The notes beneath the pieces are model-generated. The model saw only the letters and a program-made list of their open reading frames with translations. It was not told where the DNA came from and made no database searches. The position numbers were made by a program, and so were the translations under genes. Positions 4,995 through 30,357 of a stretch of DNA of 54,362 nt are shown here, one piece after another. Location: contig JADBKJ010000018.1 in NCBI GenBank assembly GCA_014896455.1, forward strand, positions 1-54,362. Direction: 5' to 3'. Every line of letters begins with the position of its first letter. Within the stretch, counting starts at the first letter, position 1. Origin of the DNA: Thermoanaerobacter sp. GTDB taxonomy: Bacteria; Bacillota; Thermoanaerobacteria; Thermoanaerobacterales; Thermoanaerobacteraceae.

Positions 4995-5393
4995 TCAATA
5001 CTCTTTTAATCTTTCATCAACTTGTGCAATTAAAGAAAAATCTTTATCATCGTGTAACAAATATAAATTATTTTCAATGGCTGTTTCTGCTATAAGTAAA
5101 TCTATAGTGCTGCGAATAGTGATTCCTTTTTTCTTACACTTGGAATACAATTTTGCAGCGTTTTCATAAGATTTGGTGCCATATTTTAGGTCATAGAATT
5201 TTTGTGTGGCTAAATATTCTTTAATTAAGTTAAATTCATTTTCAGTTTTTGCTCCTTGTAATAATTCTTGATAGATAAAATTGTTTATTCCAAAGGGGAT
5301 ATTATTCTGTATTATTTCTTCAAATTTTTTTACTTTTTCATTTTCTATGCCTTTCAGAAAAGATATTAGAACAGATGTATCTACCAAAATCAT
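4995..5393 (-). CDS. vapC: VapC-type PIN-domain toxin
   Basis: The 132-residue PIN domain has the acidic residues expected of the RNase active site: D5 in MILVDTSVLISFLKG, a Glu near residue 43 (QELLQGA), D99 (RSTIDLLIAETA) and D116-D117 (LLHDDKDFSLIA). VapC toxins cleave tRNA or rRNA when released from their antitoxin. The start overlaps the stop of the VapB gene by 4 bp, the usual antitoxin-first operon. Length is normal for the family. The RNA target cannot be deduced. Confidence 0.85.
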   Translation of the reverse strand: MILVDTSVLISFLKGIENEKVKKFEEIIQNNIPFGINNFIYQELLQGAKTENEFNLIKEYLATQKFYDLKYGTKSYENAAKLYSKCKKKGITIRSTIDLLIAETAIENNLYLLHDDKDFSLIAQVDERLKEY

Positions 5394-5590
5394 TTGCCTT
5401 CCCTCATTTTTTTGTAATCATAATTTTCATCAAACTGTATTTTTCCTTTTATCTCCATTAAATTTTTTCTTCTGCGATTTTCTACAAATTCTTTTAAAGC
5501 CAAATTGACAACTTCTTTTTTAGTTTTTAATCCTGAGATTTTTAACGCTTCTTTGATGAGATTTTCATCTATGACTATATTTGTTCTCAT
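5390..5590 (-). CDS. vapB: VapB-type antitoxin
   Basis: The 66-residue protein starts MRTNIVIDENLIKEALKISG, the ribbon-helix-helix pattern of the VapB family that begins MRTN(I/V)(V/I)(I/L)D. KTKKEVVNLALKEFVENRRR forms the second helix, and the acidic/aromatic tail (FDENYDYKKMREGK) would wrap the toxin. I chose the ATG at 5590, behind the AGGAGGTG site, over an ATG three codons upstream. The palindrome at 5608-5623 is the likely autoregulatory operator. Confidence 0.85.
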   Translation of the reverse strand: MRTNIVIDENLIKEALKISGLKTKKEVVNLALKEFVENRRRKNLMEIKGKIQFDENYDYKKMREGK

Positions 5591-5607
5591 CACGTACACC
5601 TCCTAAT

Positions 5608-7359: not shown

Positions 7360-7884
7360 ATGTTGAGTAACAGGATGTTAGAAGGATTAAATAAACAGTT
7401 GAATTACGAAATTTATTCTGCATATCTATATGTAGCAATGGAAAATTATTTTCAAGAGAAAAACTTAGAAGGTTTTGCTAATTTTTTCAAAGTTCAGACA
7501 CAAGAAGAACTTGCACATGCGAGAATTTTTTACGAGTACATATATCGCATGGGTGGGAAAGTGACTCTGTACCCGATAGAAAAACCAGAGGGAAACTTTG
7601 AAAGTATTTTAGACCTTTTTAAAAAAGCTTTGAGTCATGAAAAGAGTGTAACTGAAAGGATTCATAAGCTTGTTGATATAGCAATTGAGGATAAAGACCA
7701 TGCCACAAATGCATTTTTGCAGTGGTTTGTCAATGAGCAGGTAGAAGAAGAAGAGAGCTTCCAGAGACTTGTTGACAAGTTAGAGCTTATAGGAGACAAC
7801 ATACAGCCTATATTCATGCTTGATGCTGAATTGGCTCAAAGGACGTTTGTATTACCTGCTCCACTTGCTCAAGGACAGCAATAA
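7360..7884 (+). CDS. ftn: Non-heme ferritin
   Basis: Ferritin oxidises Fe(II) and stores it as a ferric core inside a 24-subunit shell. The 174-residue product has ferroxidase-site residues in the expected places: Glu and Tyr of LNYEIYSAYLYVAMENYF, E..H of QTQEELAHARIFYEY (EExxH), and Glu/Gln of NEQVEEEESF. Length fits bacterial FtnA-type proteins without heme-binding Met. I chose the ATG at 7360, with AAGGAGAGGG at good distance, over a GTG at 7351 that would abut that site. Together with desulfoferrodoxin at 15413 it points to iron and oxygen stress handling. Confidence 0.93.
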   Translation: MLSNRMLEGLNKQLNYEIYSAYLYVAMENYFQEKNLEGFANFFKVQTQEELAHARIFYEYIYRMGGKVTLYPIEKPEGNFESILDLFKKALSHEKSVTERIHKLVDIAIEDKDHATNAFLQWFVNEQVEEEESFQRLVDKLELIGDNIQPIFMLDAELAQRTFVLPAPLAQGQQ

Positions 7885-7965
7885 ACGATGTGATTTTGTT
7901 TAAATTTAGGCATTTTTAAAACGATGGCTCTGCTTATGGAAACTTAGTGAAATCGCAAAATACGG

Positions 7966-8010
7966 TATGGGGGTATGCTTTTTTGATAAGGCATATCCCC
8001 ATATTTTTTT
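7966..8010 (+). terminator. Terminator after ferritin
   Basis: TATGGGGGTATGC and GGCATATCCCCATA pair across a short loop and are followed by a run of T's. Confidence 0.75.
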
Positions 8011-8047
8011 AAAAGAATATAAGATAAAGTTTTTTGTTGTTAAACTA

Positions 8048-8076
8048 TAGACAAAGCGTAAGTTATATAGTAAAAT
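8048..8076 (+). promoter_or_regulatory. Promoter of the electron-transfer operon
   Basis: TAGACA (8048-8053), 17-bp spacer, TAAAAT (8071-8076), 48 bp before the first gene of the cluster. Confidence 0.5.
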
Positions 8077-8123
8077 TTATAGAAGGAATACTGTTATAAA
8101 TATATCAAATAAGAGGTGTTTTT

Positions 8124-9914
8124 ATGAGTAGTCATAAAAGAATTGTCGTCATTGGGGCCGGGTATGGGGGCGTGCATGCCGCCAAACTATTAAGCAAAAA
8201 ATTTAAAAATGACAGCACTGTAGAAATAACTCTTATTGACAAGAAACCTTATCATACTTTGTTAACAGATTTACATGAAGTAGCTGGTTCTAGAATAGAA
8301 CCTGATAGCGTTCGTGTATACTTACACAAAATTTTCGCAAACAAAAAAGTAAAAGTCATAACAGATGAAGTGGAAAAAATTGATTATGAAAGGCAAAGTG
8401 TAATTGGAAAAGACGGAGAGTATGATTATGATTATTTGATTTTAGGAATTGGAAGTGAGCCTTGCGATTTTGGCATACCTGGTGTATTTGAATACGGGTT
8501 TACAGTAGGAACATTAGAAGCTGCTATTAAAACAAAAGAACATATTGAGGAAATGTTTAGAAAAGCAAGTGCTGAAAATGACCTTGGGAAAAAAAGAAAA
8601 ATGCTTACCTTTGTAGTAGCTGGCGCGGGTTTCACAGGAATTGAGACTGCGGGTGAATTGATGGAATGGACAAAAAGTTTGTGTGATAAATATCATTTAG
8701 ATCGCAATGATGTTAAAATTATGGTGGTAGAAGCGTTGAATACCATACTTCCTAATTTAAATGCAAGATTAGCTACTAAAGCTCAAAAGTTTTTGAATAA
8801 AAAAGGAGTAGAAGTTTTGACTAATGCTCCTATAGTGGAAGTAGCAAAGGATTATATAGTTTTAAAAGATGGGAGAAAGATTGAGACAAAAACTTTAATA
8901 TGGACATGTGGAGTTCAGGGTAACAAATGCGTTGAGAATTTTGGCTTAGAGTTAGGTAGAAGATGCAGAGTCCAAACAAACGAATACATGCAAGCAGTAG
9001 GAAAAGAAAACATTTATGTGATAGGTGACTTGGCGTATTATGAAATAGATGGGAAACCTATACCTCAAGTTGTAGAGACAGCGCTGCAGTCAGCGGAAAC
9101 TGCTGTTTATAATATAGTGGCAGACATAAAAGGGGAAGAGAAAAAACCTTTTAAACCTAAATATCATGGATTTATGGTATCCATAGGAAGTAGATATGCA
9201 GTAGCAGAACTTATGGGTGTGTCTTTGACGGGTTTTTTAGCAATGGCTATTAAGCATCTTGTGAACATGCACTACCTTTTTGGGGTAGCTGGCATTGATG
9301 CTGTGTTATCGTACATTTACCATGAGTTCTTTGAAGTCAAAAACAATCGCTCAATATTGGGAGGGCATATTGCAGCCCATGTTCCTACTTTTTGGCTTGT
9401 CCTTTTGAGAATATATGTAGGCGCTTTGTGGCTTATTGAAGGCATAAATAAAATACAGCAAGGATGGCTTGACCCGTCAAAAATATTTATTATAACTACC
9501 TCTGATGTATCCGGCGCAACTGCTAATGCTACTTCTGGAGCTACTGCTGTTCAAACTTTGCAGCCTTTATTAAAGGAACCGCCGGCTTTTTATAAGTGGT
9601 TTATGGATACTTTTGTAGTACCCCATGCTTTCTTATTCCAGGTCATGGTAGTATTAGCAGAGGTGGCAATAGGATTGGCTTTAATAGCGGGTTTGTTTAC
9701 TTTCCTTGCATCTGCTGGTTCTATATTCTTAGCACTTAATTTCATCTTGTCAGCAATGGCAGATAAGTCAATATTGTGGTATATCTTCGCTGCTATAGCT
9801 TTAATGGGAGGAGCAGGGAGGTCTTTTGGCCTCGACTATTATGTAATTCCATGGATAAAAAATTGGTGGAAGAAGACTACCTTTGCTCGAAAAACATATC
9901 TTTATATAAGTTGA
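8124..9914 (+). CDS. ndh2: Type II NADH:quinone dehydrogenase fused to a DoxX-like membrane domain
   Basis: The 596-residue protein starts with an FAD-binding Rossmann motif (VVIGAGYGGVHAAKLL, residues ~5-20). It has a second NAD(P)H-binding motif (FVVAGAGFTGIETAGELM, ~165-182), ATG-like TLIWTCGVQGN, and the FAD-binding YVIGDLAYYEIDGKPIPQ (~297-315). This is the NDH-2 fold that oxidises NADH and reduces membrane quinone without proton pumping. The C-terminal third (~425-585) adds about four hydrophobic helices with a DoxX-like layout. A fused membrane domain is also a feature of the Ndh2 in Listeria's extracellular electron transfer locus. It heads an operon with eetA/eetB-like, polyprenyl synthase, ApbE and MenA-type genes, implying a dedicated quinone branch. 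Confidence 0.88.
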   Translation: MSSHKRIVVIGAGYGGVHAAKLLSKKFKNDSTVEITLIDKKPYHTLLTDLHEVAGSRIEPDSVRVYLHKIFANKKVKVITDEVEKIDYERQSVIGKDGEYDYDYLILGIGSEPCDFGIPGVFEYGFTVGTLEAAIKTKEHIEEMFRKASAENDLGKKRKMLTFVVAGAGFTGIETAGELMEWTKSLCDKYHLDRNDVKIMVVEALNTILPNLNARLATKAQKFLNKKGVEVLTNAPIVEVAKDYIVLKDGRKIETKTLIWTCGVQGNKCVENFGLELGRRCRVQTNEYMQAVGKENIYVIGDLAYYEIDGKPIPQVVETALQSAETAVYNIVADIKGEEKKPFKPKYHGFMVSIGSRYAVAELMGVSLTGFLAMAIKHLVNMHYLFGVAGIDAVLSYIYHEFFEVKNNRSILGGHIAAHVPTFWLVLLRIYVGALWLIEGINKIQQGWLDPSKIFIITTSDVSGATANATSGATAVQTLQPLLKEPPAFYKWFMDTFVVPHAFLFQVMVVLAEVAIGLALIAGLFTFLASAGSIFLALNFILSAMADKSILWYIFAAIALMGGAGRSFGLDYYVIPWIKNWWKKTTFARKTYLYIS

Positions 9915-9941
9915 TAAAAGTTAAAGAGAGGGCTACTTGAT

Positions 9942-10322
9942 GTGAAAAAAGGTGATATTTTTATTATACTTTTTGTAGCGGTTTTATCTGTTGGGTTGTT
10001 GGTGTTTTATAGAATATCAGCAACCCAACAGTATCACCATAAATATGCGGTAATAATGATAGATGGTAAAGTGTACAAAAAGGTGTCATTGGATGATGTA
10101 AATCATAAAGAAGAAATACCTATAGTTACAAAGCAAGGTAAAAATATATTGTTAGTCAAAAATGGGGGAGTTCAGGTTATTCATGCCGAGTGTCCGGATA
10201 AAATCTGTATGAAAGAGGGATTTATTGATAAACCAGGGCAAAGCATAGTGTGCCTCCCCTTTAGGATTGTGGTAGAGATAAGGGGGGATAAAAGTGTGGA
10301 GATCGACGAAGTTACCTATTGA
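9942..10322 (+). CDS. eetA: EetA-like NusG-domain-II membrane protein
   Basis: The 126-residue protein has one N-terminal membrane anchor (IFIILFVAVLSVGLLVFY) and an outer domain with the NusG domain II pattern ending CPDKICMKEGFID...IVCLPFRIVVEI. The CPDKxC and IVCLP cysteines are conserved in this family. In Listeria the corresponding gene, eetA, is needed for extracellular electron transfer, although its chemistry is not settled. The start is GTG at 9942 behind AGAGAGGG. Its 3' end overlaps the next gene, and the pair eetA-eetB occurs together in many Firmicutes. Confidence 0.82.
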   Translation: MKKGDIFIILFVAVLSVGLLVFYRISATQQYHHKYAVIMIDGKVYKKVSLDDVNHKEEIPIVTKQGKNILLVKNGGVQVIHAECPDKICMKEGFIDKPGQSIVCLPFRIVVEIRGDKSVEIDEVTY

Positions 10323-10845
10323 ATATACAAATATGTCCAGGACCAAGAAAATGGTTTTTTTGTCAATACTAGTTTCTACTTCATTGATTTTATATATTAT
10401 AGAAGGAATGCTGCCTGTTCCTTTTATTGCTCCTGGTGCTAAATTAGGCCTTGCAAATATAATCACTGTTACTTCTTTGTATTTATTTGGTTTTATTGAT
10501 ACATTAATTGTTCTCATTGTGAGAATACTATTAGCTACTTTTTTTGCTTCTTCGCCTTCTACCTTTTTCTACAGTTTAGGAGGGGGCTTGTTAAGTCTTG
10601 TTGTTATGCATCTTGTCAAAAACATTGGGAAAAATCATGTTAGTGAAGTAGGAGTAAGTGTTTCAGGGGGAGTATTTCACAATATTGGGCAGATGTTGGT
10701 GGCTTCTGCAATAGTTCAAAATATAAATATAATGATATACCTGCCTGTGTTGATGATAGCAGGGATAGGAACTGGTATCTTTGTGGGTTTATCTTCTAAA
10801 TTTCTTTTAAAACACTGGAATAAATTTAAAATATTAAAATACTAA
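10294..10845 (+). CDS. eetB: EetB-like Gx transporter family protein
   Basis: About 183 residues with five or six membrane segments. It shows the pattern of the 'Gx transporter / heptaprenyl diphosphate synthase component I' family (VPFIAPGAKLGLANIITV, then GGGLLSLVVMHLVK and GGVFHNIGQMLVAS), which resembles ECF-type substrate-binding subunits. The Listeria counterpart, EetB, is required for extracellular electron transfer and lies next to EetA. I use the GTG at 10294 because AGGGGGG lies six bases before it; this overlaps eetA by 29 bp. An ATG at 10333 would also work and fits the first membrane helix, but has a poor ribosome site. Confidence 0.8.
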   Translation: MWRSTKLPIEYTNMSRTKKMVFLSILVSTSLILYIIEGMLPVPFIAPGAKLGLANIITVTSLYLFGFIDTLIVLIVRILLATFFASSPSTFFYSLGGGLLSLVVMHLVKNIGKNHVSEVGVSVSGGVFHNIGQMLVASAIVQNINIMIYLPVLMIAGIGTGIFVGLSSKFLLKHWNKFKILKY

Positions 10846-10876
10846 ATTTTTCTTGATAAAGGTTAAAGGTGGTTAA

Positions 10877-11845
10877 ATGGATAAGTTTTGGAATGATAAT
10901 TTAGAGGTAAAAAAAGAACTTGTAGAAGTTGTAAAAATCATGAAAAAGGGTGTAAAAAGTTCAAACAAATTAATTAGCGATATACTACTAGATATGGTAA
11001 ATAATAGTGGCAAAATGTTAAGGCCTGCTTTTGTAATTATATCGGCTAAATTTGGAGATTATGATAGAAAAAAGATATTACCTTTAGCAGCTGCTATTGA
11101 AATGCTTCATATGGCTACTTTAGTGCATGACGATATAATTGACAGTGCTTTAATAAGGCGCAGTAAACCCACTATTCAGGCAGAATATGGTAAAGATTAT
11201 GCAGTGTTTATTGGAGATTTTCTTTTTTCACAGAGTTTTTTGCTTTTATCAGATAATATCAATGTTGCGAATTTAAAAAAAGTCTCTAAAGTGGTTTCAA
11301 GAATATGCAAAGGAGAGATTGCTCAATTTGAAAGCCGATATGACATAAATATTACAATAATCGATTATTTAAAAAGAATAGCTGCAAAAACTGCTGTTCT
11401 CTTCGCTTTAAGCTTTTATGTGGGAGCTTATGAAAGCAACTGTGGAGAAGAGTTGTCCAAAGTATTGGCTAGTATAGGCTATAATATTGGAATAGCTTTT
11501 CAAATTATAGATGATATTTTAGACTATACTGGGGAAGAAAGTGTTGTGGGGAAGCCTTTGTGTAATGATATACGACAGGGTGTCTTTACACTTCCTTTAA
11601 TCTATTCTTTAGAAAGGAATAGAGATGAAAAAATTATATCGTTGATAAAAAAGAGAAATTATTGTGAGGATGACATAAAACGCATTGTTGCATTTGTTCA
11701 ACAAAATGGTGGGATAACCCAATCAAAAATGTTAGCAGAGAAGTATACTAAAAAAGCTTTTGGCAAAATAGCTATGTTAAAAGATTCTCCACCAAAACAA
11801 ATTTTGATTGATGTGACGACTAAGCTTTTATATAGAAATTACTAA
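10877..11845 (+). CDS. dmkB: Polyprenyl diphosphate synthase (quinone side chain)
   Basis: This trans-prenyltransferase lengthens farnesyl- or geranyl-diphosphate with isopentenyl diphosphate. The 322-residue product has both aspartate-rich motifs: LVHDDIIDSA (first DDxxD-like site, ~85-94) and QIIDDILDYTG (second, ~212-222), plus the GKMLRPAF lead region and CKGEIAQFE. The neighbouring MenA-type prenyltransferase would attach the chain to a naphthoate head group. In the Listeria locus the same pair is called DmkB and DmkA. The chain length cannot be predicted reliably. Confidence 0.88.
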   Translation: MDKFWNDNLEVKKELVEVVKIMKKGVKSSNKLISDILLDMVNNSGKMLRPAFVIISAKFGDYDRKKILPLAAAIEMLHMATLVHDDIIDSALIRRSKPTIQAEYGKDYAVFIGDFLFSQSFLLLSDNINVANLKKVSKVVSRICKGEIAQFESRYDINITIIDYLKRIAAKTAVLFALSFYVGAYESNCGEELSKVLASIGYNIGIAFQIIDDILDYTGEESVVGKPLCNDIRQGVFTLPLIYSLERNRDEKIISLIKKRNYCEDDIKRIVAFVQQNGGITQSKMLAEKYTKKAFGKIAMLKDSPPKQILIDVTTKLLYRNY

Positions 11846-11882
11846 AATTGGTTAAAGGCCTTATTCTTGGAGGAGTTATTAT

Positions 11883-12908
11883 ATGAAAAAATTTACAGCA
11901 TTTTTCGGTATTTTTCTACTGATATTTATATTTTCTGGGTGTTCAAATAAAAATTCTCAACCTATATCTGATACTAAATTTGCACTGGATACTTATTGTA
12001 CTTTGACTGTATACGACAAGGTTCCCAAAAAAGTATTGGATGATGGATTTAAAGCCATTGAAGATATAGAAAAGAAAATGAGCGTCACTATAGAGGATAG
12101 TGAAGTAAGTGAAATTAATAAAAACGCAGGGATTAGACCCGTAAAAGTGTCTCCTGATACTTTTTACGTTATAAAAAAAGCAATACATTTTTCTGAAATT
12201 GAAAAAGGCTATTTTGATATCACGGTAGGTCCTATAGTAAATCTTTGGAATATTGGTACCGATAAAGCCAGAGTGCCTTCAGCGGAAGAAATAAAAGCTA
12301 AACTTCCTCTTGTAAACTATAAAAATATAGTTTTAGATGAAAAGAATATGACCGTTATGTTAAAAGATAAAGGTATGAGCATAGACTTGGGAGGTATTGC
12401 GAAAGGCTATGCTGCAGATAAAGTGGCAGAAGTTTTAAAAAAAGAAGGTGTAAAGCATGCTATTATAAATTTGGGCGGTGATGTCCTTACAATTGGTACA
12501 AAACCTGATGGAACTAATTGGCGCGTAGGGATTCAAACTCCTTTTAAACCCAGAGGTGAATATTTTGGGATAGTAGAGGTTGGTGAAAAAGCTGTCGTCA
12601 CTTCAGGGGTATATGAAAGATATTTTGAAAAAGACGGAAAATTATATCATCATATATTAAATCCTTTTACCGGTTATCCTGCGGATAATCACTTATATAG
12701 CGTTACTATAATAACAGATACTTCTATAGATGGTGATGCACTAGCAAAAGTTTTTGTTATGGGTTTAGATGAGGGTATGAGGGTTGCAGAAAATTTACCT
12801 GGAGTAGAAGCAATATTTGTGACAGATGATAAAAAAGTGTATATAACTTCTGGGTTAAAAGGAAATTTTAGGATTACAGATCCAGAATATACTTTAATGA
12901 CTAAGTAA
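11883..12908 (+). CDS. apbE: ApbE: FAD:protein FMN transferase (lipoprotein)
   Basis: ApbE transfers FMN from FAD onto a Thr/Ser of target proteins outside the membrane. The 341-residue product has a lipoprotein signal ending FIFSGC, then KFALDTYCTLTVYD and DLGGIAKGYAADKV, the family signatures. INLGGDVLTIG and HHILNPFTGYPADN (substrate and Mg binding) follow. Its likely target is the FMN-binding lipoprotein two genes downstream, which carries the flavinylation motif. It corresponds to FmnB of the Listeria locus. SD TTGGAGGAG before the ATG. Confidence 0.93.
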   Translation: MKKFTAFFGIFLLIFIFSGCSNKNSQPISDTKFALDTYCTLTVYDKVPKKVLDDGFKAIEDIEKKMSVTIEDSEVSEINKNAGIRPVKVSPDTFYVIKKAIHFSEIEKGYFDITVGPIVNLWNIGTDKARVPSAEEIKAKLPLVNYKNIVLDEKNMTVMLKDKGMSIDLGGIAKGYAADKVAEVLKKEGVKHAIINLGGDVLTIGTKPDGTNWRVGIQTPFKPRGEYFGIVEVGEKAVVTSGVYERYFEKDGKLYHHILNPFTGYPADNHLYSVTIITDTSIDGDALAKVFVMGLDEGMRVAENLPGVEAIFVTDDKKVYITSGLKGNFRITDPEYTLMTK

Positions 12909-12932
12909 TTCTATATTTCTGGAGGAAGTTTT

Positions 12933-13862
12933 ATGGATAAAAAAGAATTTTTAAGGGTATGGAAGGGTTTTTGGCAGTTGGCAGACCCTAAGATATGGAT
13001 AGCATCTACTGTGCCTATGTTTGTAGCGGCTGCCTATGCTTATGGTAAAACGGGAGAGTTTGACTTGTTCTGGTTTGTTGTCTCAGTTATAGGCATTTAC
13101 CTTATTGAGATAGGTAAAAATGCAGTCAATGAATTTATTGATTATAAATCTGGGGTAGATACTTTTGTAACTCCAGATAAAAGAACTCCTTTTAGTGGAG
13201 GGAAGAAAACTATAGTCGAAGGTAAACTTACAGTCGAAGAAACAGTAATTATTGCCTTAGTGACAATACTTGTAGCTTGTGCTATAGGGCTAGCTATTGT
13301 CATATTTAGAGAACCTCGCGTATTTATTGTAGGGCTTGCTGGAGTTTTAATAGCAGTTTTTTATAGTTTGCCTCCTTTTAAATTAAGCTACAGAGGCTTT
13401 GGAGAAATAGCTGTAGGAATAACTTTTGGGCCTTTGATAGTTATAGGGATGTATTTAGTGATGACTCATCATGTAAGTATAGATGTTTTATTAGTTTCTT
13501 TGCCTATTGGGTTTTTAATAACCAATGTTCTTTGGATAAACCAGTATCCAGATTATGAAGCAGACCTCAAAGGACATAAATACAATTTGTTAGTTAGAAT
13601 TGGCAAACAAAAAGGAGTGATAGTGTACGCATCTCTTTATGTAGCAGCCTATCTGTCTCTTGCTTTAATAGCTTTAGTTACTAAAAATCCAATATGGATT
13701 GTGACCTTTATAACAATTCCATTAGCTGTGAGGTCTGTAAATGTTGCCCGCAAATATTATGACGAAATACCAAAGCTGGTAAAAGCAAATGCCGATACGA
13801 TAAAAATATATCAAATTGTAGGACTCATAATGATTTTATCTTCACTGGCATCAAGATTTTAG
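12933..13862 (+). CDS. dmkA: MenA/UbiA-family prenyltransferase (demethylmenaquinone type)
   Basis: This integral membrane enzyme attaches a polyprenyl chain to an aromatic head group such as 1,4-dihydroxy-2-naphthoate. The 309-residue product has eight or nine hydrophobic segments and the two Asp-rich sites of the superfamily: NAVNEFIDYKSGVD (NxxxDxxxGxD, ~67-80) and NQYPDYEADLKGHKYNL (~203-219). It lies directly after apbE with 24 bp between, in the same operon. No men genes for head-group synthesis are in the window, so the exact substrate is inferred from the analogous Listeria enzyme. Confidence 0.88.
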   Translation: MDKKEFLRVWKGFWQLADPKIWIASTVPMFVAAAYAYGKTGEFDLFWFVVSVIGIYLIEIGKNAVNEFIDYKSGVDTFVTPDKRTPFSGGKKTIVEGKLTVEETVIIALVTILVACAIGLAIVIFREPRVFIVGLAGVLIAVFYSLPPFKLSYRGFGEIAVGITFGPLIVIGMYLVMTHHVSIDVLLVSLPIGFLITNVLWINQYPDYEADLKGHKYNLLVRIGKQKGVIVYASLYVAAYLSLALIALVTKNPIWIVTFITIPLAVRSVNVARKYYDEIPKLVKANADTIKIYQIVGLIMILSSLASRF

Positions 13863-13905
13863 GTTTTATTAAGATATTTTTTAGAAGGGAGGTGAGCGAA
13901 AAACA

Positions 13906-13934
13906 TTGACATTATTTTAACAAAACAGTATAAT
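13906..13934 (+). promoter_or_regulatory. Consensus sigma-A promoter before the FMN lipoprotein
   Basis: TTGACA (13906-13911), exactly 17 bp, TATAAT (13929-13934): perfect consensus. It implies that the last gene of the cluster is also expressed separately and strongly. Confidence 0.85.
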
Positions 13935-13976
13935 ATTTTTACACAAAATTTGTATTAAAAGGGAGGCTGTGATTTT

Positions 13977-14393
13977 ATGAGAAGGATTTTAACACTCGTA
14001 TTAGTGGGATTATTTTTGGTGTTTGCAATAAGTGGCTGTTCTTCTAAAACAGCAACTGGTACTTACAAAGATGGTACTTACAAAGCGGAACAACCTAATT
14101 TTGACGAGCACGGATGGAAGGGACAGATTGAGATAACTGTAAAAGACGGTAAAATAGCATCCGTAACTTATAATGAAGTAAATAAGGATGGCCAGTTAAA
14201 GAGAGATGACCAGCAATATGCAGAAAATATGAAGGCTAAGTCAGGTGTTACACCAAAAGAAGCATTTGAGAAATTGGAACAGCAGCTTATTGAGAAGCAA
14301 GACCCTGATAAAGTAGATACTGTTACTGGAGCTACACATACATCTCAAACTTTTAAAGAATTAGCTGCAGAGGCTTTAAAGAGTGGAAAGTAA
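13977..14393 (+). CDS. FMN-binding domain lipoprotein (PplA-like electron shuttle)
   Basis: The 138-residue protein has a lipoprotein signal (LTLVLVGLFLVFAISGC) and one FMN-binding domain. The domain shows YKDGTYKAE, GQIEITVKDGKIASVTY and the flavinylation site DTVTGATHTSQTF, in which ApbE links FMN to the Thr of the (S/T)GAT motif. In Listeria the double-domain protein PplA carries FMN at the surface and passes electrons to iron or soluble flavins; this version has a single domain. It has its own consensus promoter and a terminator, so it may be made in excess over the membrane enzymes, as expected for a surface carrier. Confidence 0.9.
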   Translation: MRRILTLVLVGLFLVFAISGCSSKTATGTYKDGTYKAEQPNFDEHGWKGQIEITVKDGKIASVTYNEVNKDGQLKRDDQQYAENMKAKSGVTPKEAFEKLEQQLIEKQDPDKVDTVTGATHTSQTFKELAAEALKSGK

Positions 14394-14407
14394 TTTTTGA
14401 ATAGAGA

Positions 14408-14446
14408 AAATAAAAGGGACAGTTTTTAAAGCTGTCCCCTTTAAAA
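14408..14446 (+). terminator. Terminator closing the electron-transfer cluster
   Basis: AAAAGGGACAG (14412-14422) pairs with CTGTCCCCTTT (14432-14442); A/T-rich on both sides, so it may act in both directions. Confidence 0.75.
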
Positions 14447-14450
14447 TTTA

Positions 14451-14534
14451 TTAAGACATAAGTCTCTTTTCTCCTTCTATTGCTTTTATAGGAGCGATAT
14501 CTTGCGATATAAAGAAGAAGAGATATTTAAGCTC
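14451..14534 (-). pseudogene. C-terminal tail of an unidentified gene
   Basis: An open frame of 27 residues (ELKYLFFFISQDIAPIKAIE then GEKRLMS) without start lies downstream of the chimeric thiF gene on the same strand. It may be the tail of a gene lost in the same deletion. The family is not recognised. Confidence 0.2.
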
Positions 14535-14567
14535 ACAGCTGCAATATACTTTATTATATCATCATTT

Positions 14568-15239
14568 TTACTCAAGCTCATTTATCATCCTTAATACTTC
14601 ATCTGCTTGTATGGCGGCGACTGCCATGACTTTGGGTGCCAAAGGTTTCTTTTCATTAATCGATGTAACAAAATCCCCCACAATTGAAAAGTTTTTACCC
14701 CGTTTTATTTTAATATTTTCACAATCACCAAATCCTGCGACACCTGAAGCCAAAACCACTTTTTTATTGTGTTTTTGTGCTTTTTTAAAAATCAGCGTTT
14801 TGGTAAATTCATTGTCAACAGCTTCCACAACTATATCATGTTGAGGGATTAACTCATCTAAATTTGACTCATCAATTTTTATATTTTTGGCTGCTATGTT
14901 TGCATGGGGATTGATTTTAAAGAGAGTATCTTTAAGGGCTAATACCTTTTTTTCTCCTACATGATGTAAAAAGTAATTTTGTCGGTTGAGATTTAAGATA
15001 TCTACCTCATCAAAATCGACTATTGTGAGGTTTTTAATACCACTTCTTATAAGCATCACTGCAACATTTGAACCAAGTCCACCACAGCCAATGAGAAGAA
15101 TTTTTACTCTTGAAAGCTTGTCAAGCATCTTTTTATCAAAATAATTTTTAAGAATTACATCAAAAGGATAAGCACAGAAGGCTGCATTATGCCTTTTTAG
15201 AGTGATAACTGCTTTTTTCTTACATCTTATGCACTTCAA
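14568..15239 (-). CDS. thiF: ThiF-family adenylyltransferase with a foreign zinc-ribbon N-terminus
   Basis: ThiF activates the C-terminal Gly of a small sulfur carrier (ThiS type) by adenylation. From about residue 30 the 223-residue protein matches the short clostridial ThiF: NYFDKKMLDKLSRVKILLIG, the CGGLGSNVA nucleotide loop, DFDEVDILNLNRQNYF with the Arg/Asn of the active site, and VVEAVDNEFTK. The first ~22 residues (MKCIRCKKKAVITLKRHNAA) look instead like the N-terminal zinc ribbon (CxxC...H..FC) of TtuA/TtcA-type tRNA thiolation enzymes. The fusion is in frame with no start or ribosome site at the ThiF part. This seems to be a deletion chimera; activity of the ThiF part is possible. 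Confidence 0.75.
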   Translation of the reverse strand: MKCIRCKKKAVITLKRHNAAFCAYPFDVILKNYFDKKMLDKLSRVKILLIGCGGLGSNVAVMLIRSGIKNLTIVDFDEVDILNLNRQNYFLHHVGEKKVLALKDTLFKINPHANIAAKNIKIDESNLDELIPQHDIVVEAVDNEFTKTLIFKKAQKHNKKVVLASGVAGFGDCENIKIKRGKNFSIVGDFVTSINEKKPLAPKVMAVAAIQADEVLRMINELE

Positions 15240-15384
15240 TTGATAAAGCCTCCTTCGACTAACCTCCAGAAACTACCGATATTTATTATATCAAATTTAC
15301 CTTCTATAATTATACTAAACTTAATTGTGTTTAATAAATATTCTTTGACAGAAAAAGAATTGGAGAGGTATAAGCTAGATAGTA

Positions 15385-15413
15385 AAAAATAAGGGCTTTT
15401 TTGCCCTTATTTT
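15385..15413. terminator. Hairpin terminator of the desulfoferrodoxin gene
   Basis: AAAATAAGGGC (15385-15395) pairs with GCCCTTATTTT (15403-15413). The hairpin overlaps the dfx stop codon and has T/A runs on both sides. Confidence 0.7.
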
Positions 15414-16020: not shown

Positions 16021-16710
16021 ATGCACAAAATATTGGTAATTGAAGACGATGTTAATATAGCTAAATTTGTAAAAATAAATTTGGATAAATACTACGAGAC
16101 TGAAATAGTGCATGAGGGTGAGAAGGCACTTTATTTATTAGAGAGGGAAAGGTTTTCTGTTATAGTGTTGGATATAATGCTTCCGGACATAAGCGGTTTT
16201 GAAATTTTGAAAAAGATAAGAGCCATGAAAGTGAATACTCCAGTAATTATCTTGACAGCCAAAAGCCAGGATGTGGATAAAATCTTGGGCTTAGAGCTAG
16301 GAGCAGATGACTATATAACAAAACCTTTTAACCCGAGAGAACTTGTCGCCAGAGTAAGGGCGGTTATAAGAAGGGTTTATGAATTTAATGCTTTAAGTAA
16401 AAGTATCAATTTGTTGGAATATGATGAAATAAAATTGGACTTGCTCCAGAATAAGGCTTTTGTAAGAGGAAAGGAGGTTTTTCTTACTCCGAGAGAATTT
16501 CAGATTTTAAAGATGTTGATGACAAATAGGAAAAAAGTTGTAAAGAGAGAGGAACTTATTGCTTCTATATGGGGCGACTCTTTTATGGAGGATACGAAAA
16601 CTTTGGACGTACATATACGAAGATTGAGGGAGAAAATTGAAGAAAATCCTGACCAGCCGAAATATATACATACCCAATGGGGAGTTGGGTACTATTTTGG
16701 GGGAAACTAA
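16021..16710 (+). CDS. OmpR/PhoB-family response regulator
   Basis: The 229-residue protein has a receiver domain (MHKILVIEDDVNIAKFVKI, with Asp9-Asp10) and the phospho-acceptor Asp in VIVLDIMLPDISGFE. ILTAKSQ has the conserved Thr and DDYITKPF the conserved Lys. The C-terminal winged helix (~130-228) includes LTPREFQILKMLM and KTLDVHIRRLREKI. It should bind DNA as a dimer when phosphorylated by the kinase encoded directly after it. Its regulon cannot be deduced; the Pho box at 2690 makes PhoP one option, but nothing in the sequence proves it. Confidence 0.93.
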   Translation: MHKILVIEDDVNIAKFVKINLDKYYETEIVHEGEKALYLLERERFSVIVLDIMLPDISGFEILKKIRAMKVNTPVIILTAKSQDVDKILGLELGADDYITKPFNPRELVARVRAVIRRVYEFNALSKSINLLEYDEIKLDLLQNKAFVRGKEVFLTPREFQILKMLMTNRKKVVKREELIASIWGDSFMEDTKTLDVHIRRLREKIEENPDQPKYIHTQWGVGYYFGGN

Positions 16711-18096
16711 ATGAGTATAAAGATTAAACTTACCATTTCATATATTTTATTGATTACAATGATAATAATTTTTTTCGGAGTCATATCTACTTTAACTCTT
16801 GAAAAATATTATATTGACAATATAATTGAGATATTAACTTCTCAGGGCACTTCTTTTTCTCGTGTGTTTGACAGCTACATTGATGCAGATATATATACAA
16901 TAAGCCAAGATGTAGTTAAAAAGCTTGCTACAGATACTAATGCTCAAGTTCAGGTTTTAAATATGGAAGGTATGCTTTTAGGAGATTCCACACTTTCATC
17001 TACTCCTGTCCCTGTCAAAATACTCACCCCGGATGTCATACAAGCTATTTCTGGAGAAAGTGGAGTTTATACAGAAAAAATCAATAATGAAAGAGTTTTA
17101 CACGTTTCGGTTCCTATAAAAAACAAATTAAATTATGTGGCAATTTTGAGGCTTTCTTCTTCTTTGGAGGAAGTTTCCAACATAATAAAAAGACTGGTTT
17201 TATTTTTAGCGCTTGTTTTGACAGTGTCTTCTTTAGTTGCGTTGATAATAGGATTTTTTATAGCAAATAAATTAACAAAACCTCTTGAAATGGTAAAAAA
17301 GGCAACTCAGGAAATGGCAAAGGGCAATTTTAAAGTGAGAGCGGAGAAAACTTCAAATGACGAAATAGGAATACTTGCGGATTCTTTTAACAAAATGGCC
17401 GAAGAATTGGGACAGTTAGAAGAGATGAAAAATGAATTTATAAGCAATATTTCTCATGAATTAAAAACACCTCTTACTTCTATAAAAGGATTCGCAATAA
17501 CTGCGATGGATTTGGTAGAAAAAAATAGTGAACTATATAAGTATTTGAACATTATTGATGAAGAAACAGATAGACTTTCTTGTTTAGTGGATGAACTTTT
17601 GGATTTTTCTAAGATAGAATTAAATAAGGTTAAACTAAGTTTTGAAGAAGTAGAGTTAGATAAATTGATAGAGGATACAGTCGCAATTTTAAGACCTCAT
17701 GCTAGCAATTATGGAGTAAATTTAATTTGCAAAAAAAAGATTGATAGGGTTGTCATAAATGGGGATGTAAATCGATTAAAACAAGTATTAGTGAATATAA
17801 TTGACAATGGAATAAAAGCTTGTAGTAGAGGAAAATATGTTAAGGTGTTTCTTGACATAAAGGACAAAAAAGCTGTAATAAGGATTGAAGACCAGGGGCA
17901 AGGAATTTCGCAAGAGGAAATAAAATATATATTTGATAAATTTTATAGAGGTAAAAATAATAAATACAGTGGCACAGGATTAGGACTTGCTATTTCTAAA
18001 AAGATAATTGAAGAACACAAAGGGATTATTACTGTAGAAAGCGAGGTAGGAAAAGGTAGTGTTTTCACTATTGAGTTGCCTTTAAAAGATAGATAA
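16711..18096 (+). CDS. Sensor histidine kinase (HAMP-HisKA-HATPase)
   Basis: The 461-residue membrane kinase starts one base after the regulator's stop codon. It has a membrane segment (~8-28), an extracellular sensor region of ~135 residues, a second membrane segment (~162-185), HAMP (KPLEMVKKATQEMAKGNFKV), HisKA with the phospho-His in FISNISHELKTPLTSIKG, and an ATPase domain with N-box (NIIDNGIKA), G1 (DQGQGIS) and G2 (GTGLGLAISKKI). It senses an unknown external signal and phosphorylates the partner regulator. There is no PAS domain, which many PhoR proteins have. Confidence 0.93.
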   Translation: MSIKIKLTISYILLITMIIIFFGVISTLTLEKYYIDNIIEILTSQGTSFSRVFDSYIDADIYTISQDVVKKLATDTNAQVQVLNMEGMLLGDSTLSSTPVPVKILTPDVIQAISGESGVYTEKINNERVLHVSVPIKNKLNYVAILRLSSSLEEVSNIIKRLVLFLALVLTVSSLVALIIGFFIANKLTKPLEMVKKATQEMAKGNFKVRAEKTSNDEIGILADSFNKMAEELGQLEEMKNEFISNISHELKTPLTSIKGFAITAMDLVEKNSELYKYLNIIDEETDRLSCLVDELLDFSKIELNKVKLSFEEVELDKLIEDTVAILRPHASNYGVNLICKKKIDRVVINGDVNRLKQVLVNIIDNGIKACSRGKYVKVFLDIKDKKAVIRIEDQGQGISQEEIKYIFDKFYRGKNNKYSGTGLGLAISKKIIEEHKGIITVESEVGKGSVFTIELPLKDR

Positions 18097-30102: not shown

Positions 30103-30192
30103 GCCGGAGTGGCGGAACTGGCAGACGCACAGGACTTAAAATCCTGCGGGCCCTAAAAGCCCGTACCGGTTCGAGTCCGGTCTCCGGCACCA
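30103..30192 (+). tRNA. tRNA-Leu (anticodon TAA)
   Basis: A 90-nt class II tRNA: acceptor GCCGGAG/CTCCGGC, long variable arm (GCGGGCC...), anticodon loop CTTAAAA, T-arm GGTTCGAGTCC and encoded CCA (30190-30192). Confidence 0.95.
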
Positions 30193-30196
30193 ATGG

Positions 30197-30273
<77 letters not shown>

Positions 30274-30280
30274 AAAATAT

Positions 30281-30357
30281 GGCGGCGTAGCTCAGTTGGC
30301 CAGAGCATGCGGTTCATACCCGCAGTGTCGGTGGTTCAAATCCACTCGCCGCTACCA
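30281..30357 (+). tRNA. Elongator tRNA-Met (anticodon CAT)
   Basis: 77 nt, acceptor GGCGGCG/CGCCGCT, anticodon loop TTCATAC, T-arm GGTTCAAATCC, encoded CCA. It resembles elongator tRNA-Met rather than tRNA-Ile(CAU). The integrated element begins in its 3' half. Confidence 0.9.

Follow-up and report, generated by a model that had tools for sequence, protein, structure and literature searches.

The closest described relatives of the system considered here are the flavin-based extracellular electron transfer (EET) locus of Listeria monocytogenes and the FLEET genes of Lactiplantibacillus plantarum. In Listeria, EetB is reported to be the S-subunit of an energy-coupling factor (ECF) transporter that binds and exports FAD (PMC9973259). 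L. plantarum carries ndh2, eet, dmk, fmn, and pplA genes and, according to the parts of PMC10746273 and PMC9888254 consulted, has dmkA but lacks the remaining genes that would complete a menaquinone pathway; it carries out EET with 1,4-dihydroxy-2-naphthoic acid (DHNA) supplied from outside. EET genes are already in print for Thermoanaerobacter spp. (PMC9556394, citing Light 2018), that is, for the same genus group and the same kind of genes as those analyzed here; locus decay, recombination, and the type II NADH dehydrogenase (NDH-2) motif described below are absent from the account in the consulted part of that paper. The DNA studied is one whole contig of 54,362 nucleotides (the window) from a Thermoanaerobacter sp. 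genome of 33 contigs (90% complete, 0.09% contamination), in which seven consecutive genes appear to encode a Listeria-type flavin-based EET system, an assignment that the comparisons support in part. Thermophilic fermenters of this class attract attention in work on metal reduction, biofuels, and electrodes. The locus is of a known kind in a genus already listed for it, and what is new is a glutamate hallmark in its NDH-2 and a setting in which the organism appears to be a quinone auxotroph.

The seven open reading frames (ORFs) lie on the plus strand and fill positions 8124 to 14393. Every encoded protein matches its Pfam family above the curated cut-off, which excludes chance (Pyr_redox_2, 153 bits, with DoxD, 34 bits; NusG_II, 117; Hpre_diP_synt_I, 166; polyprenyl_synt, 226; ApbE, 331; UbiA, 121; FMN_bind, 41). 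For comparison by BLASTP we used L. monocytogenes record NZ_LR134400.1, which is filed among plasmids and is annotated with fmnA, pplA, eetA, and eetB; its dmkA gene is split into pieces. The first gene (8124 to 9914) encodes an EET-type NDH-2 that is 43% identical to Listeria Ndh2, with FAD- and NADH-binding domains extending to about residue 396 and a C-terminal DoxD-like membrane domain matched at residues 480 to 586. The EetA-like protein (9942 to 10322; PF07009) consists of a single N-terminal hydrophobic segment, judged by hydropathy, and a NusG domain II, and its match to Listeria EetA is short (35% over 81 amino acids). The EetB-like frame (10294 to 10845; PF07456; 42% identity) starts with GTG inside the end of the eetA gene and is assigned to the FAD-export type of ECF S-subunits. 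It is followed by a DmkB-like polyprenyl diphosphate synthase (10877 to 11845; 38%) and an FmnB-like ApbE flavin transferase (11883 to 12908; 45%), whose N-terminal hydrophobic segment fits the extracytosolic type and whose closest solved chain is 7esa (318 bits), from Listeria FmnB. The sixth gene (12933 to 13862) encodes a prenyltransferase of the UbiA/MenA type that clearly belongs to the UbiA family but is only weakly DmkA-like (22% over 151 amino acids of one dmkA piece; E value, 2e-8); its top NCBIfam matches are DHNA polyprenyltransferase models, all below cut-off among the matches listed.

The last gene (13977 to 14393) encodes an FMN-binding lipoprotein (PF04205) that is 44% and 53% identical to the two FMN domains of Listeria PplA but has only one such domain itself, with a single flavinylation-type site (DTVTGAT, residues 114 to 120) and, judged by eye, a lipobox-like ISGC. 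It is the sole FMN_bind match in its genome. Against the NCBIfam PplA model it scores 120 bits (cut-off, 325), covering part of the model, and none of the seven proteins exceeded an NCBIfam cut-off among the matches listed. The arrangement of all seven genes on one strand also sets the locus apart from that of Listeria. A first-pass annotation of this DNA had described the seven genes, the single-domain carrier, and the identity of EetA and EetB, the last being the point that it named beforehand as open to refutation, and all three hold. Its equation of the locus with the Listeria gene set is borne out for six genes (35 to 53% identity) and is weak for the prenyltransferase. All seven genes look constrained relative to the intact copy in a related genome (G008), with ratios of nonsynonymous to synonymous substitution (dN/dS) of 0.05 to 0.14 that are lowest for ndh2 (0.048); over all computable pairs the range is 0.04 to 0.18.

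Structural prediction for EetB gave a weak AlphaFold model (mean pLDDT, 66) and no fold match with an E value below 0.001. Five of the 10 top fold matches, judged partly by title, are ECF S-components, so that the weak model resembles these proteins too and points the same way as the Listeria comparison. Profile comparison of EetB with five ECF_trnsprt-family proteins of its own genome returned nothing useful. Two other roles were considered for EetB, one as quinone machinery in the form of a heptaprenyl (prenyl) synthase subunit and one as a DHNA importer; both were discarded because the Listeria homolog is reported to be an ECF S-subunit that binds and exports FAD (PMC9973259).

The locus is, in our judgment, likely to encode a Listeria-type flavin-based EET system that is run by a quinone auxotroph. 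This explanation is supported by the gene-by-gene match to Listeria, by the grouping of the genes in two order relatives, by two complementary loci in Caldanaerobacter subterraneus, by the negative searches for quinone biosynthesis, and by the case of L. plantarum. From the genes we infer a chain in which NADH would reduce the FAD of the membrane-fused NDH-2 and the electrons would pass to a naphthoquinone from the surroundings, either free and DHNA-like or DHNA to which the UbiA protein has added a prenyl chain from the polyprenyl synthase. Once reduced, this quinone would in turn reduce FMN on the surface lipoprotein, which would then deliver electrons to ferric iron, free flavin, or an electrode outside the cell. 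EetB, perhaps together with EetA, would export FAD with the aid of ECF T- and A-subunits encoded elsewhere, and ApbE would use this FAD to attach FMN to the DTVTGAT site. Iron or electrode reduction by this organism is predicted on the same grounds.

The distribution of the locus among relatives shows repeated damage. Ten genomes of the genus, including that of the window (G000), comprise two with an intact copy, four with damaged copies, and four that lack the locus; the six with an NDH-2 match are those with a copy, and the four without (G002, G004, G005, and G006) also lack EetB and ApbE, G002 having one FMN_bind match elsewhere. The locus is open throughout in G000 and G008. In Thermoanaerobacter wiegelii Rt8.B1 (G009) the ndh2 frame is broken, and an A-rich stretch of ndh2 (window positions 8585 to 8602) is where the frame breaks both there and in G001 (loci L007 and L031). 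G001 also has a broken polyprenyl synthase gene and an insertion sequence (IS) transposase region at the menA site; this region (L061, 11530 to 12913) has a transposase-like ORF, judged by eye, and takes the place of menA and of the lipoprotein promoter. In the draft genome of Thermoanaerobacter thermocopriae JCM 7501 (G007), ndh2 and apbE are broken and the end of EetB is altered. C. subterraneus DSM 13054 (G003) has two loci (L006 and L063 between them). One, called the first below, is whole except that a stop interrupts the lipoprotein gene; the other, called the second, is without ndh2, with eetA cut and polyprenyl synthase and menA broken, but with eetB, apbE, and the lipoprotein gene open. 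Every part is thus still open in this genome in one copy or more, its open ndh2 and its open lipoprotein gene sitting on separate loci. Outside the genus, the order relative G014 (L064) has all seven genes together in a rearranged order, and G016 (L065) has six together with apbE elsewhere. The broken loci of sister species, affecting ndh2 only, the lipoprotein only, or ndh2 with polyprenyl synthase and menA, amount to ready-made natural mutants.

These losses bear on an alternative in which the lipoprotein and ApbE perform an envelope redox function without NDH-2 or quinone, the NDH-2 and quinone part being an optional addition in the course of being lost. We consider this improbable, although it is the strongest of the alternatives. 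It draws on the open apbE and lipoprotein genes that persist amid lost or disrupted ndh2, polyprenyl synthase, and menA in G001 and at the second C. subterraneus locus, and on family counts in 37 genomes of the class, 31 of which contain FMN_bind and 31 ApbE, against 17 with NDH-2 (E value of ≤1e-60); these counts take in other types of FMN_bind and ApbE proteins, however. The first C. subterraneus locus shows the reverse pattern, with the genes from ndh2 to menA open and the lipoprotein gene broken, and apbE itself is broken in G007. The dN/dS values suggest that the losses are recent, with ndh2 the most constrained gene of the seven. G001 may be Thermoanaerobacter pseudethanolicus; if this identity is right, its current would not need the chain, given the disrupted state of the genes for NDH-2 and the quinone in G001, which counsels caution in reading function from gene presence. 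T. pseudethanolicus is reported to produce current in a reference cited in PMC6497744, and this species would then count in favor of the envelope function.

Unlike in Listeria, no DHNA pathway was found for the class to which the window belongs. In profile searches, MenD exceeded its curated cut-off in 0 of 21 genomes and MenB in 0 of 37, and MqnA/D was found in 0 of 37; among control genomes, MenD was matched in 14 of 14 and exceeded the cut-off in 7, MenB exceeded it in 7, and MqnA/D was found in 4. Since MenD and MenB never passed their cut-offs and MqnA/D was not found, the quinone precursor of the EET chain probably comes from outside, as in L. plantarum. The locus has genes for both polyprenyl synthase and UbiA prenyltransferase while the DHNA route is not recognized in the class, so that a prenyltransferase without upstream men genes is shared with L. 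plantarum and DHNA synthesis by the organism itself was not found. Likeness to L. plantarum is here a matter of gene content as given in the papers, not of sequence, and L. plantarum differs in not being a thermophile and in having EET demonstrated, whereas EET in the organism of the window is predicted from its genes. Deletion of dmkA or dmkB in L. plantarum is reported not to lower DHNA-dependent current and to lower iron reduction slightly (PMC9888254), and this mild effect suggests that the prenylation genes may be accessory in the present system too. What emerges is that these thermophilic fermenters have an EET chain that seems to depend on a quinone from outside.

The first-pass annotation had inferred a dedicated quinone; if this means one that the organism makes for itself, these searches do not support it. 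Self-sufficient EET with demethylmenaquinone from a divergent or undetected pathway would account for polyprenyl synthase and UbiA genes that are open and constrained, but with MenD and MenB nowhere above cut-off and MqnA/D not found it is improbable. The same annotation overstated the locus as complete: a tblastn search with Listeria FmnA found no match in the 54-kb window, the rest of the genome not having been searched for it. Across the window and the other loci, many of them short, this query gave one match (L139). FmnA, an ECF T-subunit (ECF-T), is the partner of EetB in Listeria; such a partner is no requirement for a locus of this kind, eetB adjoining ECF-T genes in 291 of 4,214 genomes (PMC9973259).

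Several points weigh against Listeria-type EET by a quinone auxotroph, the lack of an FmnA match in the window among them. Deletion of eetA in Listeria is reported to give no EET phenotype (PMC9973259), which makes the role of EetA uncertain. The prenyltransferase, with its low identity to the Listeria piece and its scores below every NCBIfam cut-off listed, is a putative DHNA enzyme at most. Matches below cut-off were obtained for MenD in 19 of 21 genomes and for MenB in 16 of 37; they are presumably acetolactate synthase- and crotonase-type enzymes, respectively. Finally, a gene could be missing from the incomplete genome of the window, less so from all 37.

The NDH-2 differs from canonical enzymes at its quinone site. 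Residues 5 to 396 align (273 bits) with the canonical NDH-2 4nwz, that of C. thermarum by the residue numbering in PMC6167311, which has no extra membrane domain. The 4nwz motif PPTAQIAIQ corresponds to PQVVETALQ in the window, so that canonical AQxAxQ is replaced by VExAxQ (E318 and Q322) and Glu318 stands in the place of Gln317, a residue that together with I379 is reported to clamp the quinone head (PMC6167311). Scanning the phylum with the window NDH-2 gave matches in 102 of 398 genomes at an E value of ≤1e-40. Among the matches listed, 45 genomes scored at least 395 bits with alignments extending to residue 451 or farther, and the score then drops to 264 bits; G235 adds one C-terminal fragment. 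Glutamate occupies the motif position in 29 of 29 EET-type loci and in 21 of 22 further ones, the window included (50 of 51, each from a different genome), and also in Listeria Ndh2, whereas 20 canonical NDH-2s, taken from lower-scoring rows of the scan, have Gln (14), Pro (4), or His (2) and never Glu. The EET-type sample is a part of the scan matches chosen by similarity to the window, and Glu is accordingly read as a mark of the clade, one of 10 such positions between 28 EET-type and 20 canonical enzymes. Listeria Ndh2 shares V317 and H378 as well; H383 is kept neither there nor in the divergent loci L145 to L149. The main motifs given in a survey of 1,762 NDH-2s are AQxAxQ, AQxAxR, and APxAxQ, with no mention of VExAxQ in its consulted part (PMC5299459), and no description of a Glu-type motif was found among the literature matches listed, which is no proof of its absence. 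A single residue separates EET-type from ordinary NDH-2, which puts the acceptor of the EET-type enzyme within reach of a direct test.

The lone EET-type NDH-2 of the 51 with Gln at this position (L142, in G273) has two FMN domains, ApbE, EetB, polyprenyl synthase, and a UbiA-like gene in its neighborhood. Loci L145 to L149, in which VExCx replaces VExAx, belong with other matches of the phylum scan to a subgroup with open frames of about 660 to 750 amino acids, possibly with an extra domain, and an adjoining polyprenyl synthase gene. Self-flavinylation of NDH-2 through the loop SDVSGATANATSGAT between its hydrophobic segments was also considered, the NATSGAT of this loop fitting a flavinylation pattern. 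This reading was rejected: among the loci listed (L020 to L028 lying outside them), NATSGAT occurs in the window and C. subterraneus only and is missing from other members of the genus, from the order relatives G014 and G016, and from L009 and L010, which have an Ala/Ser-rich linker.

It is tempting, if speculative, to regard EET-type NDH-2s as a distinct class of enzyme in which Glu in place of the clamping Gln (VE for AQ), together with clade residues such as H378, might suit them to water-soluble naphthoquinones or flavin carriers from other microbes and not to a membrane pool of their own. EET in Thermoanaerobacteria could then be a scavenging accessory that lineages acquire, lose, and repair by recombination, depending on who provides the quinone.

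The window locus itself appears to be recombinant. From 8966 to 14393 it shares 98.9% identity with C. subterraneus DSM 13054 (58 mismatches in 5,428 positions) and 80.8% with T. wiegelii, whereas from 8124 to 8963 the values are 82.4% and 96.3%, respectively. The left breakpoint thus lies inside ndh2, at 8963 to 8966, and is preceded by short alternating tracts at 8894 to 8963; no right breakpoint stands out, since the downstream thiF is 97 to 98% alike in both species (in C. subterraneus the alignment covers 190 of 672 bases). Recombination would explain this switch, and an assembly join of two coexisting strains, which would leave the genome perhaps without an intact locus of its own and which the abruptness of the switch in a whole contig of a 33-contig genome might suggest, is very unlikely in view of the 58 mismatches, the alternating tracts, and the low contamination.

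A sigma-70-type promoter for the lipoprotein gene (TTGACA-17-TATAAT, 13906 to 13934, plus strand) is the sole 12/12 consensus match between 7800 and 14700, although overall these matches are no more frequent than in shuffled sequence (25 observed, 27.9 in shuffles). The perfect consensus reported by the first-pass annotation is therefore real but particular to this genome: TTGACA occurs in none of eight related loci aligned (seven genomes), seven of which have TTGATA or TTGATG (in one case 20 bases, as spacer, precede the −10), while the −10 TATAAT is kept in seven and the IS region of G001 occupies the site in the eighth, so that it is the position of the promoter that is conserved. On the same strand, a terminator-like hairpin from the terminator scan (7964 to 8005) separates the locus from a ferritin gene, and a second hairpin directly 3′ of the last gene (14411 to 14443) is a possible terminator that is absent from the scan list but more stable than any of 200 shuffles (z = −4.26).

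The slot between the ferritin gene and a desulfoferrodoxin-like gene recognized by eye (about 7884 to 15413) is variable, with an EET locus in some genomes and nitrilase-like and sugar transporter-like ORFs, again judged by eye, in G004 and G005 (L078 and L079). Downstream of the locus, a response regulator (Response_reg and Trans_reg_C) and a histidine kinase gene identified by eye (16021 to 18096) are a candidate regulator; G004 and G005, although without the EET locus, have close relatives of both in the same slot. On the minus strand at 4995 to 5599, a small two-gene unit resembles, by eye, a VapBC-type toxin-antitoxin pair. The right-hand part of the window (30103 to 54362) resembles an integrated mobile element that carries a pilus module. 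A tRNA Leu-Met-Met cluster (30103 to 30357) is followed by a large serine recombinase gene on the minus strand that overlaps the last tRNA, and the 20 ORFs scanned between 30314 and 54362 include M78 peptidase, Beta_protein, AAA_31 (ParA-like), T2SSE, T2SSF, RcpC (Flp pilus), and actin-like ALP_N matches.

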